A stretch of 41,608 nucleotides of DNA, from positions 1 to 41,608 of IMG/VR virus record IMGVR_UViG_3300037245_000165. One strand, written 5' to 3'. Below the pieces are notes generated by a model that saw only the letters and a list, made by a program, of their open reading frames with translations, was not told the DNA's origin and ran no database searches. The DNA is from a virus. Within the stretch, counting starts at the first letter, position 1. Each line of letters opens with the position of its first letter. Positions 4,561 through 41,608 of the stretch are shown in pieces. The position numbers and the translations under genes are program-made.

Positions 4561-4791
4561 ATGAAACCAACAAATCAAAAAGAAGAAATATTAAAGCATT
4601 TATTAGACTTTGGAAGTATAACAAGCATAGAAGCTATTGAGCAGTATGGAGTAACTAGATTAAGTGATAAGATTTATTTATTACGTAAAGAGGGCTATTC
4701 TATTTTAACAAATAGCAGAAAGTTTACTAATAGATATGGAAATGTCTCTACTTATGGAGTTTATAAATTTAATAAATCAAAAACAATATAA
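4561..4791 (+). CDS. Helix-turn-helix protein (HTH_39-like)
   Basis: The 76-aa protein looks like a compact winged helix. Helix one is about residues 6-17 (KEEILKHLLDFG). The turn-recognition part is ITSIEAIEQYGVTRLSDKIYLLRKEG. A short wing (YGNVSTYGVYKF) ends the protein. This pattern is typical of small phage helix-turn-helix proteins that often sit near replication genes. It may regulate this operon or help load replication proteins; the target is unknown. The stop codon is one base before the ATG of the DnaA-like gene. Confidence 0.7.
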   Translation: MKPTNQKEEILKHLLDFGSITSIEAIEQYGVTRLSDKIYLLRKEGYSILTNSRKFTNRYGNVSTYGVYKFNKSKTI

Positions 4792-4792
4792 T

Positions 4793-5176
4793 ATGAATTA
4801 CTGGATAAAACCATCTTTTGATCATGTAGATATAAGAGAGGATAACAAAATAGATGAATTAATAAATTACGTATGTAGTTCTAATTCTGTAACTATTGAA
4901 GATTTAAAATCAAAAAAAAGTCATAGAGACTTATCAGAAACTAGGCATGTATTGTTTTATATTTTGCATAAAGTTTTTTGCATTAGTTGTTCTAATGTTG
5001 GCAGTATGTTTAATAGACACCATACAACTGTTTTACATGGTTGTAAAACGGTGTCAGGATTTATAGAAGTAGATCCAGATTTTAACTCTAAAATGTCTAC
5101 AATAATTAATAACTTTAGGTATAGACCGTCTAAAACAGAAATAGATAAAATAGATAAAACAATTTATTATTTATAA
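4793..5176 (+). CDS. DnaA domain IV-like DNA-binding protein
   Basis: The 127-aa protein has a C-terminal portion (about residues 45-85) matching the DnaA box-binding domain: SETRHVLFYILHKV, then SCSNVGSMF, then RHHTTVLHGCKTV. The last part corresponds to the DnaA signature with the R-D/H-H-T-V core. No AAA+ ATPase domain is present, so it cannot act as a full initiator. It could bind DnaA-type boxes at the phage origin or compete with host DnaA. The ATG at 4793 is preferred over the in-frame ATG at 4736, which lies inside the previous gene. It is followed 3 bases later by the C5 methyltransferase. Confidence 0.75.
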   Translation: MNYWIKPSFDHVDIREDNKIDELINYVCSSNSVTIEDLKSKKSHRDLSETRHVLFYILHKVFCISCSNVGSMFNRHHTTVLHGCKTVSGFIEVDPDFNSKMSTIINNFRYRPSKTEIDKIDKTIYYL

Positions 5177-6657: not shown

Positions 6658-6661
6658 TTAG

Positions 6662-6738
6662 TATATTTGTGGTGTGTCTGAGTTTAGCGGCTTAGTTCAA
6701 TGAGGTTAGCGACCGCCTGCACACTATTTTAACGGTCG
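6662..6738 (+). promoter_or_regulatory. Promoter-like box and switch-like leader before DUF6291 gene
   Basis: TATATTTG at 6662-6669 matches the TAnnTTTG box perfectly, although no TTTG is seen 19 bases upstream. The downstream leader can fold in two exclusive ways. GCGG (6687-6690) can pair with CCGC (6713-6716) inside GTGTG/CACAC flanks. Alternatively CGACCG (6710-6715) can pair with CGGTCG (6733-6738). The gene starts at 6758, so the switch could affect its expression. Confidence 0.45.
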
Positions 6739-6757
6739 TATTAAAAAAAAGAGACGC

Positions 6758-7746: not shown

Positions 7747-7929
7747 ATGAAAAAAGTATTTGTAATTCAATTAACATCTATAAATGGAAGAGTTGAGGAC
7801 TATATTAAGGGTGAAGGATTAATGATTAGGAGATGGAATAGCGAACAAGAAGCGTTAAATTATCTAAAAAAAACATTTAACAGAAAATATCTTTATAAGA
7901 TATTTGAGTTTATAGAATTTGATAATTAA
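7747..7929 (+). CDS. Hypothetical protein, 60 aa
   Basis: A short protein with a beta start (KKVFVIQLTS), a central WNSEQEALNYLKK helix and a terminal strand (KIFEFIEFDN). The pattern beta-helix-beta resembles small ferredoxin-like or regulatory proteins, but I recognise no family. It is preceded by an A-rich leader and followed by the DnaB-type ATPase after a 40-base gap that contains no obvious terminator. Confidence 0.6.
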   Translation: MKKVFVIQLTSINGRVEDYIKGEGLMIRRWNSEQEALNYLKKTFNRKYLYKIFEFIEFDN

Positions 7930-7969
7930 AGCTAGTTACTGTTTGGAATTGTTAAAAAAAATAAAAAAT

Positions 7970-8893
7970 ATGATAACTAATCAAAACGAAATAAATCAAT
8001 ACTTACAGGATTATCATGCTGGTAGAATATCAAAAGGCTTAGATACTGGACTATTAAAGTTAGATGATGCAATAAGATTTAAGAAAGGTCAATTAACAAT
8101 TATAAACGGTTTAGACAACGTAGGAAAAACAATTTGGATATTATGGTATTTTTTAACTTTATCAAGAAAACATAATTTAAAATGGTGTATTTATTCTGGA
8201 GAAAATAAAGCAGGGCAATTAGTAAGACAATTAATCCAGTTTTATACTGGTGAAAGACTAGAGAAAATGGAGCTTAGAGAAGTGTTTAGAGTAGAATTAA
8301 TTATTAATAATTGGTTTACCTTTATTGACAATTCTAACTTTTATAAATCAAAGGATTTATTTAAAATATTTGCCGATGGTGATTATAATGGTTGTTTAAT
8401 TGATCCTTTTACTGGAATGGATAGAGAATATACACACGCTGCTAATTATGATTTTCTAAATGAATCTAGGAGTTTTTGTAATAGCACTAACAAAAGTGTT
8501 TATGTAAATACTCACGTTGTAACCGCTGCTGCTCGTAGGGTTTATGCAGAAGGACATGAATACGCTGCTTATTCAATGCCAGTAGGAAAGTCAGAAAGCG
8601 AAGGAGGTCAGCCATTTGGAAACCGTACAGATGATTTTTTAACTATCCATAGGCTGGTAGGTCATCCGATTAGGAATTACATTACAGAGGTTTATGTAAG
8701 AAAAATTAAAGATACTGAAACTGGGGGACGTGTTTCTGCAATAGATGATCCATTAGATTTTGAATTTAATAGTGGTTTAGGCTTTACAATGGATGGACAA
8801 AATATATTAAACCAAACTAAAAAAAATGATTTAGAATTAAAACCTTTGCCTAAGTCTGATGAATTTGGTCAATATGAAGAAGCACCGTTTTAA
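7970..8893 (+). CDS. DnaB-like RecA-fold ATPase (replicative helicase)
   Basis: The 307-aa protein contains a Walker A motif GLDNVGKT (about residues 47-54), a Walker B-like GCLIDPF in the middle, and the NTHVVTAAAR segment typical of DnaB-type C-terminal domains. It lacks the N-terminal DnaB domain, so it is a short helicase core. It presumably forms a ring and unwinds the phage fork, loaded by the DUF6291-like protein encoded just upstream. I chose the ATG at 7970 after a long A-rich leader; the ATG at 7919 would overlap the previous gene. The C-terminus ends in EEAPF, reminiscent of the SSB tip. The stop codon immediately precedes the first intergenic hairpin. Confidence 0.8.
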   Translation: MITNQNEINQYLQDYHAGRISKGLDTGLLKLDDAIRFKKGQLTIINGLDNVGKTIWILWYFLTLSRKHNLKWCIYSGENKAGQLVRQLIQFYTGERLEKMELREVFRVELIINNWFTFIDNSNFYKSKDLFKIFADGDYNGCLIDPFTGMDREYTHAANYDFLNESRSFCNSTNKSVYVNTHVVTAAARRVYAEGHEYAAYSMPVGKSESEGGQPFGNRTDDFLTIHRLVGHPIRNYITEVYVRKIKDTETGGRVSAIDDPLDFEFNSGLGFTMDGQNILNQTKKNDLELKPLPKSDEFGQYEEAPF

Positions 8894-8963
8894 TAACACC
8901 AAACTAAAACGGCTTTAGCGAACGTAACGAGGTACGAAGTTATGCGGTTTAGTGACTGTTATA
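8894..8963. repeat. attC-like intergenic hairpin A
   Basis: The element starts directly after the stop of the ATPase gene. TAACA (8894-8898) pairs with TGTTA (8957-8961), and ACTAAA (8903-8908) pairs with TTTAGT (8948-8953). The centre contains further GC-rich material. Its position after a stop codon and its TAAC...GTTA ends are shared with five other elements up to 11990. Confidence 0.6.
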
Positions 8964-8976
8964 AAAACTTTTTAAA

Positions 8977-9178: not shown

Positions 9179-9209
9179 TTTGCAGGTTATAAATAAATAA
9201 CTATATTTG
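9179..9209 (+). promoter_or_regulatory. Consensus Bacteroidota promoter for ncRNA candidate
   Basis: TTTG at 9179-9182, exactly 19 bases, then TATATTTG at 9202-9209: a complete match to the Bacteroidota -33/-7 consensus. Transcription would start about 9216, directly in front of a highly structured non-coding stretch rather than a gene. Confidence 0.75.
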
Positions 9210-9215
9210 AAGTCT

Positions 9216-9307
9216 TAAGTGACGTAGGAAATCACAAAAAATTTATTTAAAGCCTTAGTACATTAGAAAGCCTTTCCTACGTGGCTACTTTTAGAACGGG
9301 CTTTTTT
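9216..9307 (+). ncRNA. Candidate structured small RNA or attenuator
   Basis: The stretch carries no ORF and starts just after a consensus promoter. Hairpin 1 is GTGA (9219-9222)/TCAC (9232-9235) with loop CGTAGGAAA. Hairpin 2 is AGCC (9269-9272)/GGCT (9283-9286) with loop TTTCCTACGT. The two loops are perfectly complementary (9223-9231 with 9273-9281), giving either a kissing-loop interaction or an alternative 10-bp long stem. Two AAAGCC copies (9249-9254 and 9267-9272) can each pair with GGCTTT (9299-9304), which runs into a T6 tract as in a terminator. I know no named RNA family that matches. It could be a free sRNA or a leader for 9451. Confidence 0.7.
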
Positions 9308-9450: not shown

Positions 9451-9699
9451 ATGACTGAAACAGAAAAAGCAAGAAATATAATAAAAGAGTGGACAACTGG
9501 AGAATATGCACCAGACGGCAGACCGTTAAAGCGTATATTAGAAATTGATGACTTAGATAATTTAGCAATAGATTTAGTTAAAAAATTAAATATAGACGAT
9601 GTTAGCAAAAATGAAGCGGTTTGTAATTGTGAAAACGAATATTGGAAAGAAGATGAATCTGGAGACTGGTATTGCACTATACACGACAAACAAGCGTAA
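9451..9699 (+). CDS. Hypothetical protein with C-terminal Cys/His motif, 82 aa
   Basis: The first 50 residues are helical and acidic. The C-terminal part contains the cysteines CNC (about 58-60) and a C-x-x-H group (CTIH, about 75-78), which could bind zinc. I do not recognise a family. The ORF overlapping it in another frame at 9599 is a shadow. The stop codon lies 16 bases before hairpin B. Confidence 0.6.
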   Translation: MTETEKARNIIKEWTTGEYAPDGRPLKRILEIDDLDNLAIDLVKKLNIDDVSKNEAVCNCENEYWKEDESGDWYCTIHDKQA

Positions 9700-10133: not shown

Positions 10134-10160
10134 TTAATTTAATCTTTTTTCACATATGAC

Positions 10161-10190
10161 TTGTATATATAAAATATATATGTATATTTG
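10161..10190 (+). promoter_or_regulatory. Bacteroidota-type promoter
   Basis: TTG at 10161-10163, 19 bases, and TATATTTG at 10183-10190 match the consensus. The predicted start near 10197 leaves a 37-base leader to the ATG at 10234. It would drive the small-gene block 10234-13683 and lies just after the terminator-like part of hairpin C. Confidence 0.7.
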
Positions 10191-10233
10191 TAGGGTAGAA
10201 AGGAAGTAACCTGCCACATTAATACAAAAAGAG

Positions 10234-39346: not shown

Positions 39347-39508
39347 ATGGACCCAGCAATAGAAACATTAATAACAGAAATAACATTTCAAAACGAAAGG
39401 ATAGCAGAATTAGAATATACGCTAGAACAATTAAAGAGTCAATTATTAGATACTCATGCAGAGGATAGTGTAATAATAACAATTATTAATAACGCATTAA
39501 ATAAATAA
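39347..39508 (+). CDS. Acidic coiled-coil protein, 53 aa
   Basis: ATG at 39347, TAA at 39506-39508. The peptide (DPAIETLITEITFQNERIAELEYTL and on) looks like a leucine/isoleucine heptad coiled coil, ending in TIINNALNK. The last 26 codons match the partial gene at window positions 3-83 exactly. It may dimerise with the following early proteins; no family recognised. Confidence 0.7.
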   Translation: MDPAIETLITEITFQNERIAELEYTLEQLKSQLLDTHAEDSVIITIINNALNK

Positions 39509-39512
39509 AAAG

Positions 39513-39824
39513 ATGGAATTATTAGAAGTAGAAAATTTAGATTTAGAAAGTAGCTTTATTGAAGTGTTATTTGATGGTATTTTAAAAGAGGGGTTTTATG
39601 TAGAAAGTAACTTTAGTTATGATACTGAATTATTAGAAGAAGAAGAAGAAGAAACTAATTGTAAAGATATTTTAGCACCAACTAATTTAAAATTTTGGGA
39701 TTTTAAAACTTTTGATAGTCAAGAAAATGAGATTTCTATAAATGATAGAGAGTTAAAAAAGATTAAAGAGTTAGTAGAATTTAAGCTAATTGATTTATTA
39801 AGTGATGAATTAAATAATAATTAA
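39513..39824 (+). CDS. Acidic hypothetical early protein, 103 aa (allele B)
   Basis: Same length and order as 88-399. Residues 1-5 and from about 44 onward are close to identical, while 6-43 differ at about half the positions, so the exchange boundary lies within the gene. The acidic run and C-terminal helix ending NNN are kept. Function unknown. It precedes the Rad52-like gene by 3 bases. Confidence 0.8.
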   Translation: MELLEVENLDLESSFIEVLFDGILKEGFYVESNFSYDTELLEEEEEETNCKDILAPTNLKFWDFKTFDSQENEISINDRELKKIKELVEFKLIDLLSDELNNN

Positions 39825-39827
39825 GAT

Positions 39828-40277
39828 ATGAATTTAGAAAACTTAAAAAAAGAGATGCCTTTTAAATGGAGGGTTCAAAGCGCTAACGAATGGGGGGCAA
39901 ATTGTGTTGCTTATATTGATGCTAGAGATGTTCAAGACTTACTTGATGAAACAATAGAGGCTGGAAAATGGCAATGTAAATACGAAGAACATAAAGGTAA
40001 TTTATTTTGTTCTATTGGCATTAAAATAGGCGAAGAGTGGGTGTGGCGTTCTGATTGTGGGACTGAAAGCCAAGTCGAAAAACAAAAGGGTGAAGCAAGT
40101 GACGCTTTCAAAAGAGCTGCGGTCATGTGGGGTGTTGGTAGGTTCTTATACTCTAAGACTAGAGTAAAGTTACCAGTTAAAGAAAAAAATAATCGCTGGA
40201 TGCCATATTCAGAAAAAACAGGAAAGTTTGTTTATGGAGATAATATAACAAAATGGTGTAATCAATTAAGTAAATAG
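39828..40277 (+). CDS. Rad52/Rad22-like single-strand annealing protein (allele B)
   Basis: The 149-aa protein has a beta-sheet part (VAYIDARDVQDLLDETIEAGKW, LFCSIGIKIGEEWVWRSDCG) and the hallmark segment EKQKGEASDAFKRAAVMWGVGRFLYS (about 84-109) of the Rad52/22 family. It anneals complementary single strands coated with SSB and so supports phage recombination. It replaces the unrelated-looking 137-aa gene found at the same place in the left copy (401-814). The flanking DNA is almost identical, which implies gene-precise exchange. The C-terminal part (YGDNITKWCNQLSK) is short. Confidence 0.88.
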   Translation: MNLENLKKEMPFKWRVQSANEWGANCVAYIDARDVQDLLDETIEAGKWQCKYEEHKGNLFCSIGIKIGEEWVWRSDCGTESQVEKQKGEASDAFKRAAVMWGVGRFLYSKTRVKLPVKEKNNRWMPYSEKTGKFVYGDNITKWCNQLSK

Positions 40278-40283
40278 ATAGAT

Positions 40284-40526
40284 ATGAAAGGATCAAAAGA
40301 ATTTTTTGAAGAACTAAGACACAATGAAGAATGGTGTAATTGTTTTATGACTAAAGAAATTTACAATGGTATTGATTTTGAACTAAAGGAACAAATTGTT
40401 TTAAATGAAGTTAGACAAAAAAACAAGGAATTAGAACAAGATGAAAATTATATTAATCTAGTTAAAAAAGTAAGTAAGGCAAAAAAAGAATTAAGGAATT
40501 ACGAATTTAATAAAAATCATAAATAA
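40284..40526 (+). CDS. Hypothetical early protein, 80 aa (copy B)
   Basis: Identical to the 826-1068 product except for Asn instead of Asp at residue 76. Few base changes are present (mostly third positions), so the copies diverged recently or recombine. Its function is unknown. The stop shares a base with the following ATG. Confidence 0.8.
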   Translation: MKGSKEFFEELRHNEEWCNCFMTKEIYNGIDFELKEQIVLNEVRQKNKELEQDENYINLVKKVSKAKKELRNYEFNKNHK

Positions 40527-40774
40527 TGAAAAATAAATTTAAAAAATCTGATGCTAATGGTAATAAGTTACCAGAAGAAATAGGAAAAGGAATAAACGAA
40601 GAACATTTAAAAAAAGTGTTATCAGAAATGAATCCAAATGATAGTGCATTAACTTTAAGACTTCCTAGCGATTTGCATATTCAATTAAGTAAAGAATGTG
40701 ATAGGATGCAAGTAACAAACTCATTTTATGTTAGGCAATTATTAATAAATCATTTTAAATATGAAAGCAAATAA
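40526..40774 (+). CDS. Ribbon-helix-helix DNA-binding protein (copy B)
   Basis: Differs from 1068-1316 at a few positions (for example N for K in the basic tail, S for T in PSDLH), with the strand-helix-turn-helix core preserved. The same candidate operator exists at 39123-39146. As in copy A the reading overlaps the next gene start. Confidence 0.75.
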   Translation: MKNKFKKSDANGNKLPEEIGKGINEEHLKKVLSEMNPNDSALTLRLPSDLHIQLSKECDRMQVTNSFYVRQLLINHFKYESK

Positions 40775-41039
40775 AGAAATATTAGTTTTAATTATAGGCG
40801 TGTTAATTTTATACTGCCTATACGAAACTAAAAATAAAAGAGAATTAGAGCGTATAAATTGCGATTTAAGAGCCTCAAACAAAAAAACTGATAGTTTATA
40901 CGTCTACCAATCTGAAAGGCTTTTATATTACTCTATAATAAGTATTAAACAAAATGAAATAATAAATAGATTTAGCAGCAGCAGAAAAGCAAAATTAGAA
41001 GATGCTGAATTAATGGAATTACAAACTAAATTAAATTAG
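40761..41039 (+). CDS. Small membrane-anchored protein (copy B)
   Basis: Nearly identical to 1303-1581, with the same hydrophobic segment (ILVLIIGVLILYCL) and the same serine/arginine patch near its end. Few substitutions (for example KNKREL for KQKKEL). Unlike copy A it is followed by an additional gene at 41042. Function unknown. Confidence 0.75.
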   Translation: MKANKEILVLIIGVLILYCLYETKNKRELERINCDLRASNKKTDSLYVYQSERLLYYSIISIKQNEIINRFSSSRKAKLEDAELMELQTKLN

Positions 41040-41041
41040 AT

Positions 41042-41386
41042 ATGGTAATAGGAAAAAATAGAATACAGTTTGAAAAGTGGTATGTTAGAGACTTTTTAAA
41101 TAATAAAAAAGCACACAAAGAAAGCATTCGTTATGAAACTCTAATAAATCGTTTTGATAATCTACCTTTTGAAATGCAAATAGGTGTTTACTTAGCTTAT
41201 TATGATAGTTTGGGAATAGAAATAACTGTTGTTTGCATGTTTGAAAAGTGGAAATATAAAATAATTAGGATTGACACCATTAAATATAAGGTTTATTCGT
41301 TTAGAGAAGCTGGTTTAGAATCAAGAAACGAAGCCTACAAAGAAGCATTTAAACAAGCAGATAAATTAATTAATAAATTAAATTAG
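41042..41386 (+). CDS. Hypothetical protein, 114 aa (present only in right copy)
   Basis: Unrecognised by name, but I recall the pattern PFEMQIGVYLAYYDSLGIEI followed by YKI and an EAYKEAFKQADKLIN helix at the end from uncharacterised Bacteroidota phage proteins. It starts with VIGKNRIQFEKWYVRDFLNN. It is inserted cleanly between the membrane protein and the DUF1367-like gene: the left copy has the same flanks without it. This suggests a gain or loss by recombination at short intergenic homology (TTAGATATG). Confidence 0.7.
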   Translation: MVIGKNRIQFEKWYVRDFLNNKKAHKESIRYETLINRFDNLPFEMQIGVYLAYYDSLGIEITVVCMFEKWKYKIIRIDTIKYKVYSFREAGLESRNEAYKEAFKQADKLINKLN

Positions 41387-41388
41387 AT

Positions 41389-41608
41389 ATGAAAGTTTTT
41401 TTAGTAAAACAAGGTAACGGATCTTATTTGCCTGCTAATAATTCAGATTATGATTCTTTAAAAAAAATTAAAGTAGGTGCTATTGTTAGTTGTGATATTA
41501 AGCAACCTAGAAATATAGGTTTTCATAAAAAATTCTTTGCTCTAATAAATTTAGTTTTTGAGAATCAAGAGATTTATAATAATATAGATCATTTAAGAAA
41601 AGAATTAA
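41389..41608 (+). CDS. DUF1367-like protein, 5' part (cut by window end)
   Basis: The first 73 codons match the 1584-1997 protein with a single visible substitution (KVGAIV versus KVGSIV). The gene is truncated only by the window boundary, at a point equivalent to position 1803. It shows the KKFFALINLVFEN signature. Confidence 0.75.
   Translation, partial: MKVFLVKQGNGSYLPANNSDYDSLKKIKVGAIVSCDIKQPRNIGFHKKFFALINLVFENQEIYNNIDHLRKEL

Follow-up and report, generated by a model that had tools for sequence, protein, structure and literature searches.

The C4 RNAs of phages P1 and P7, which differ from each other by compensated changes, control an antirepressor and not a replication operon, while the pRNA of phage phi29 carries two mutually complementary loops through which pairing between molecules is possible. 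In phage HK022, the put RNA places two hairpins at the start of the early transcript and acts in cis on transcription; to our knowledge, it has neither a terminator of its own nor loop-loop complementarity. The CI RNA of P4 silences the P4 replication genes via RNA-directed premature termination, and is itself processed from the transcript and pairs with the flanking sequences seqA and seqC (PMC4825925). In the plasmid ColE1, changes in the kissing loops create compatible plasmids (PMC9458437).

Here we describe an RNA element in a 41,608-base IMG/VR virus record (IMGVR_UViG_3300037245_000165, positions 1 to 41,608; hereafter the window). Judged by conserved sequence and structure, it is one member of a new, previously uncatalogued family of structured RNAs in uncultivated phages. 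With the C4 RNAs it has in common that a phage RNA pairs with sequences of its own transcript, but the architecture is another, and the C4 antisense RNA model (RF01695) gave no covariance-model match in the window or the other member loci searched. With the phi29 pRNA it shares the two complementary loops of a phage RNA, though the pRNA is part of a packaging motor whereas the element adjoins replication genes; a phi29-type packaging RNA was rejected as a candidate on account of this position and because the window is that of an ordinary tailed phage with a large terminase. Like the put RNA, compared here by description, the element would open an early transcript with two hairpins, but it adds a terminator and complementary loops. 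Besides the terminase, the window encodes portal, major head, tape measure, endolysin and holin proteins, and no integrase was matched among the roughly 30 of its proteins included in a non-exhaustive scan. A phage gene at 4736-5176 has a DnaA C-terminal (DnaA-box-binding) domain (Pfam, E=2.1e-17). The record ends (1-1803 and about 39425-41608) share several repeat blocks at 89-96% identity with the order of open reading frames (ORFs) kept, as would result from closing a circular or terminally redundant genome with two strain variants.

The element in the window and its relatives

The earlier note on this DNA, made from the sequence alone, had described a promoter, TTTG-N19-TATATTTG, followed by two hairpins within 9179-9307, and both lie exactly there (Table 1). 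Flavobacterial TAnnTTTG boxes sit at -12 to -5 (PMC9723704), and the RNA is on that basis predicted to start at about 9214, at or just before hairpin H1; its 3' end is predicted at about 9307, giving a length of ~90-94 nt. The loops are, as had been noticed, perfectly complementary over 9 nt, or over 10 if A9222:T9282 is included. Beyond what the note had seen, the strands T1 and T2 form an intrinsic terminator that wraps around H2 as an extra hairpin in the terminator loop, as a rule the element forms the leader of a replication operon, and its loop code switches between related phages. The two AAAGCC copies that the note had set in competition are both present, at 9249 and 9267, and the pairing of the first with GGGCTTT is conserved; competition between them is not a family feature, because the second copy reads AACGCC in one homologue (L047) and TTTTAG in another (L002).

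Table 1. Features of the window element and its immediate surroundings.
Feature	Position	Strand	Remarks
DnaB-like/primase-helicase-type gene	7919..8893	+	PHROG 18375, E=3.5e-24; 5' of the element
Small gene, 65 aa	8977..9174	+	Immediately 5' of the element promoter
-33-type TTTG	9179..9182	+	From sequence; followed by N19 to the -7 box
-7 box TATATTTG	9202..9209	+	Flavobacterial sigma-A consensus TAnnTTTG
Hairpin H1	9219..9235	+	GTGA 9219-9222, loop 1 CGTAGGAAA 9223-9231, TCAC 9232-9235
Loop-1 code CGTAGGA	9223..9229	+	Pairs with 9275-9281
Linker AAAAAATTTATTT	9236..9248	+	A/U-rich, unpaired
T1 (AAAGCCT), 5' strand of terminator stem	9249..9255	+	Pairs with 9298-9304
Hairpin H2	9269..9286	+	AGCC 9269-9272, loop 2 TTTCCTACGT 9273-9282, GGCT 9283-9286
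Loop-2 anti-code TCCTACG	9275..9281	+	Pairs with 9223-9229
T2 and U-run, GGGCTTTTTT	9298..9307	+	Intrinsic terminator; T2 (GGGCTTT) 9298-9304, U-run 9302-9307
First possible small ORF, 18 aa	9370..9426	+	3' of the terminator; from sequence only
Next ORF	9451-9699		3' of the terminator

Taken as a single sequence, the element is unremarkable: its folding energy is ordinary (z -0.62) and, not being significant alone, was rejected as evidence, and generic promoter matches are as frequent in the window as in shuffles. Conservation therefore had to decide. Relatives of the DnaB-like gene led to the elements of L004 (98% identical) and L002 (68%), and a pattern scan to L047 as a further homologue. 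Successive searches used looser patterns, left seven loop bases free, or anchored the pattern on H2 alone; the TATATTTG box was required in two of the pattern searches, including that with seven free loop bases, and not in two of the looser searches or the H2-anchored one, in which nearly all true members have a box of this type. The independent H2-anchored scan returned 15 further members, every one of them with a complementary loop 1 upstream. A final frame scan, with loop patterns C.T..GA (loop 1) and TC..A.G (loop 2), fixed four pairs and left three code positions free, loop codes departing from C.T..GA falling outside it; it yielded 56 elements on 55 viral contigs, 46 of them distinct and the window element among them, and missed L047 because the H2 of that homologue has 3 bp. 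A covariance model trained on 17 phage sequences, all from the other group, detects the window element with 36.8 bits (E=1.6e-5) and scores L002 at 65.7 bits. Members share one plan, consisting of TATATTTG, H1, an A/U-rich linker (about 10-26 nt in all members), T1, H2, T2 and a U-run; about half of the homologues also have an upstream TTG at N16-N19 from the -7 box, which is not a strict feature. The homologues are uncultivated contigs throughout, several of them fragmentary, and we infer the phage hosts from promoter type and gene relatives only.

A linker scan for the window group gave no further window-type members, and the other relatives of the window helicase (L003, L005-L010), whose records are fragments, hold no credible copy. 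No family member was found in 400 Flavobacterium genomes, the one weak match, considered as a bacterial or prophage copy, being rejected as an ordinary terminator, and a pattern scan of 84,980 species genomes returned no match passing structural ranking. Named phages (INPHARED) and plasmids (PLSDB) gave no credible match to the element, and the closest helicases in named phages are <32% identical. In agreement with the earlier note, which had recognized no known RNA family, Rfam 15 produced no match at or above the gathering threshold in the window or 12 member loci, and around three element copies only sub-threshold chance hits at E<=10; a literature search found no description of the element.

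Covariation of helices and loop codes

In all 56 elements, that of the window included, the 7-nt loop cores of H1 and H2 are exact complements, and the three free positions match in every case; when the 46 distinct members were re-paired at random, none of 20,000 shuffles gave more than 27 matches. Seven codes occur (CGTAGGA in 34 elements, CGTGAGA in 8, CGTCGGA in 5, CCTGAGA in 3, and CATAGGA, CATCGGA and CCTCGGA in 2 each), with three of the seven core positions varying in a small set of combinations; two of the nine combinations possible were not observed. Across all 25 aligned sequences the loop-core pairs are Watson-Crick at 7/7 positions, and the covariation of the loop pair and of the helices was upheld in comparison with shuffles and slid controls. 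Loop 1 has A or AA at bases 8-9, with possible partners that vary, and the conserved contact is therefore the 7-bp core, 7 bp being the classical size of a kissing interaction. The functional link between the loops that had been proposed from the window alone is thereby supported; loops varying without compensation, which would have spoken against it, were sought in dozens of homologues and not found.

The helices that carry these loops change with compensation as well. Between the window and L002, three helices do so: H1 goes from GTGA/TCAC to GAAG/CTTC, H2 from AGCC/GGCT to TTAGT/ACTAA, and the loop 1:loop 2 pairing from ACGTAGGAAA/TTTCCTACGT to GCATAGGAAA/TTTCCTATGC, while the terminator of L002 has C-G where that of the window has U-G. 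Further variants in homologues include GAAG/CTTC and UCGAAG/CUCCGA for H1 and AAGGU/ACCUU, AUUGGU/ACCAAU and UUAGU/ACUAA for H2, double changes being present. The T1:T2 stem, 7-12 bp around H2, covaries at several pairs with many double changes and is followed directly by the U-run, with runs of 4-9 T after the stem in 55 of the 56 elements; a conserved stem immediately before a U-run, between promoter and gene, is the anatomy of an intrinsic terminator. The 10-nt ACGTAGGAAA also occurs in the Walker-A codons of the window helicase gene (about 8117-8126), matching the loop-1 stretch of the RNA base for base. Loop 2 as an antisense to this part of the helicase mRNA was rejected, and the match is regarded as coincidence, because members with other codes lack it.

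At least two code changes have taken place on backbones that are otherwise nearly identical. L082 (CGTAGGA) and L231 (CGTGAGA), whose downstream 1.4 kb share 97% identity, differ at 4 of 14 loop-core bases and at 1 of 77 others, and L098 and L119b, with the same AG-to-GA switch on a different backbone, at 4 of 14 core bases and 2 of 81 others; the corresponding Fisher tests (p=0.0017 and p=0.0039; counted per base pair, 0.017 and 0.030) are small, and the phage pairs were chosen after inspection. One recombination tract would hardly carry both loops, because backbone-specific T1 and linker sequences separate them. On the L119 contig, two elements that bear different codes lie 4.6 kb apart, one preceding and the other following the primase-helicase gene. 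Most combinations of non-matching codes give much weaker pairing, with some cross-pairing, as between a CGTAGGA loop 1 and a CATAGGA loop 2 (-7.3 kcal/mol). As far as sequence comparison can tell, code switching together with the two-code phage suggests selection for distinct codes. The switching of a complementary loop pair makes it testable whether phages use RNA loop codes for self/non-self in co-infection, a use that would parallel the incompatibility loops of plasmids, and natural pairs exist for such tests, both as the same backbone with different codes and as one phage with two.

Genomic position, folding states and competing readings

Replication genes lie directly downstream of 44 of the 56 elements and encode DnaD/O-like loader or primosomal proteins, DnaB-like helicases, Toprim primase-helicases and BT4734-like primases, in modules of clearly different types. 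The distance from U-run to ATG has a median of 25.5 nt (10-46 nt in 51 of 56), and a TAnnTTTG box between H2 and the start codon is absent from all 56; no separate promoter is therefore evident for the downstream genes, which depend on read-through. A new structured-RNA family of many uncultivated phages with Bacteroidota-type promoters sits at the start of the replication operon, a key decision point. Elsewhere, in the window, L004, L002 and one of the L119 copies, and also in L047, the element stands behind replication genes. In the window it lies just 3' of the DnaB-like gene, which is homologous (tblastn) to helicases located downstream of the element in other phages. The remaining eight elements have no recognized replication gene next to them, the contig ending early in several and a loader-sized protein following in one (L210). 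For the window and its closest relatives, the genes that follow the element show homology neither to each other nor to the usual replication operon, so that the role of the element there could differ. A small gene with an LYKIEF-like motif, related to that of the window, also immediately precedes the element in L004 and L047, while the first possible ORF behind the window terminator is not conserved in L004, L047 or L002.

Several neighboring features deserve record. Another leader (6661-6757) heads the window's own replication operon, before a DUF6291 gene; it has TATATTTG and could form an H-type pseudoknot in which GTGTG/CACAC crosses CGACC/GGTCG, lies in a region conserved in L002, and may replace the kissing leader at that operon. 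The intergenic stretch that separates the small gene from the helicase gene (8894-8976; AACGGCTTTAGCGAACGTAACGAGGTACGAAGTTATGCGG) is GC-richer and hairpin-prone. A strongly conserved AT-rich promoter region (TTGTATATATAAAATATATATGTATATTTGTAGGGTA) is found at 10140-10200 of the window and at about 9305-9250 (minus strand) of L047, the genes 3' of it otherwise differing between the two. ARAGORN called no tRNA gene beside the element, and this includes a tRNA-like sequence immediately behind the element of the L004 phage (L064:1399-1483, minus strand), to which the Rfam tRNA model gave a sub-threshold 23.1 bits.

We propose, with a probability of roughly 0.58, that the element is a phage leader RNA acting as a conditional terminator, or attenuator, whose terminated product of ~90 nt is also a small RNA. 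The starting points are features of the sequences themselves: the promoter box, the two hairpins, the loop-loop pairing, the terminator stem with its U-run, and the position. From these we infer transcription, a switch, its direction and what sets it, as well as regulated read-through and the stability of the terminated RNA. RNA polymerase would start at or just before H1 and proceed through H1, linker, T1 and H2. In the nascent RNA, loop 1 and loop 2 would pair first, and then probably form a 7-9 bp kiss between intact hairpins. As T2 emerges, T1:T2 would zip around H2 and, with the U-run, set free a compact product of about 90 nt, which would be a small RNA with both loops. Where T1:T2 is delayed or displaced by the loop-loop contact or another factor, read-through would reach the downstream genes, which are replication genes (helicase loader and helicase or primase) in most members and the early genes behind the helicase gene in the window. 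Predicted folds of the RNA ended just before T2 contain loop 1:loop 2 in 34/34 distinct sequences, and those of the full-length RNA contain T1:T2 in 30/34, a pattern expected of two states that compete or follow one another. In the four exceptions (window, L004, L047 and L096) nested-only folding favors the loop 1:loop 2 stem over the terminator, and the balance of states therefore differs there. Nested energy models do not score the pseudoknotted state, so that in reality T1:T2, the two hairpins and the kiss may coexist in the final structure. Since the folds before T2 and at full length differ, with the kiss possibly retained, a conditional terminator with sequential states is favored. The choice offered by the earlier note, a stable small RNA or an attenuator, fits the anatomy of promoter, hairpins, terminator and genes on either side, and the function proposed here would embrace both.

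The element could instead be a trans-acting, self-complementary RNA of copy control or immunity, its code being an incompatibility or immunity type. The terminated leader would accumulate as genomes multiply, kiss the same leader on nascent transcripts and shut the replication genes both of its own phage and of any co-infecting phage that shares its loop code. The recurrent code changes (L082/L231, L098/L119b), the two codes of L119, the far weaker pairing of most non-matching codes, and the precedents of P4 CI RNA (PMC4825925) and of ColE1 loop changes (PMC9458437) all speak for this possibility, which we nevertheless consider doubtful: both partners are on one RNA, where intramolecular pairing should win, any structural pairing would give covariation, CGTAGGA and CATAGGA still cross-pair, and the Fisher tests are small and their pairs picked post hoc. 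Even more tentatively, one may imagine an RNA 'identity code' of phages, in which the terminated leader shuts same-code replication operons in trans; copy-number control and compatibility in superinfection would both be set by the code, and its switching would be driven by diversifying selection.

A stand-alone small RNA gene with other targets, to which the downstream genes merely adjoin, seems unlikely to us. It would account for an own promoter and terminator, for H1 at or near the predicted 5' end, for the compact fold and for the differing downstream genes of the window-group relatives, but in most members the start codon comes 10-46 nt past the U-run and no promoter box intervenes, and phages with different helicase and primase types alike keep the element at the head of the replication operon. 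That same proximity of replication genes, nearly always observed, and the use of kissing hairpins by ColE1-type primers would also suit a DNA-level element (a replication origin or primer site with ssDNA hairpins) or a replication-priming RNA; the strand-specific promoter box, the 3' U-run, the constant orientation to the genes, the finding that opposite-strand covariance-model matches are weak mirror hits, and the two copies 4.6 kb apart in one phage make this very improbable. Least probable of all is that the codes vary under host targeting of the early transcript, by an RNA-targeting CRISPR system or a host sRNA, both loops changing to keep the fold. Recurrent switching with the rest of the leader unchanged would be expected from it, yet only 3 of 7 core positions vary, in few combinations, and escape from spacers should also alter the flanks and the linker.

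Relation to known leader and antisense RNAs

The conditional terminator that we favor has its nearest counterpart in P4. The CI region is likewise an untranslated leader before replication genes with complementary segments in one leader (PMC4825925), and the control by premature termination with a short leader-derived RNA that is established there (PMC4825925) is what we propose for the element from its sequence. The element differs in that its partners are terminal loops within one ~90-nt unit with its own intrinsic terminator, in having no Rfam match, and in belonging to phages of another phylum. Internal complementary segments in the leader of a replication operon are found in 44 of the 56 elements, the window element lying behind the helicase gene. 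With ColE1 RNAI/RNAII and the Inc antisense RNAs the element shares short kissing loops, which in ColE1 control replication and set compatibility (PMC9458437). The partners in RNAI/RNAII are sense and antisense RNAs from opposite strands, whereas the loops of the element are on one strand and in one RNA, without two convergent opposite-strand transcripts; ColE1 is moreover a plasmid and the element is of phages. By analogy, the element would work most like P4 CI leader control with ColE1-type loops, and we claim membership in neither system.
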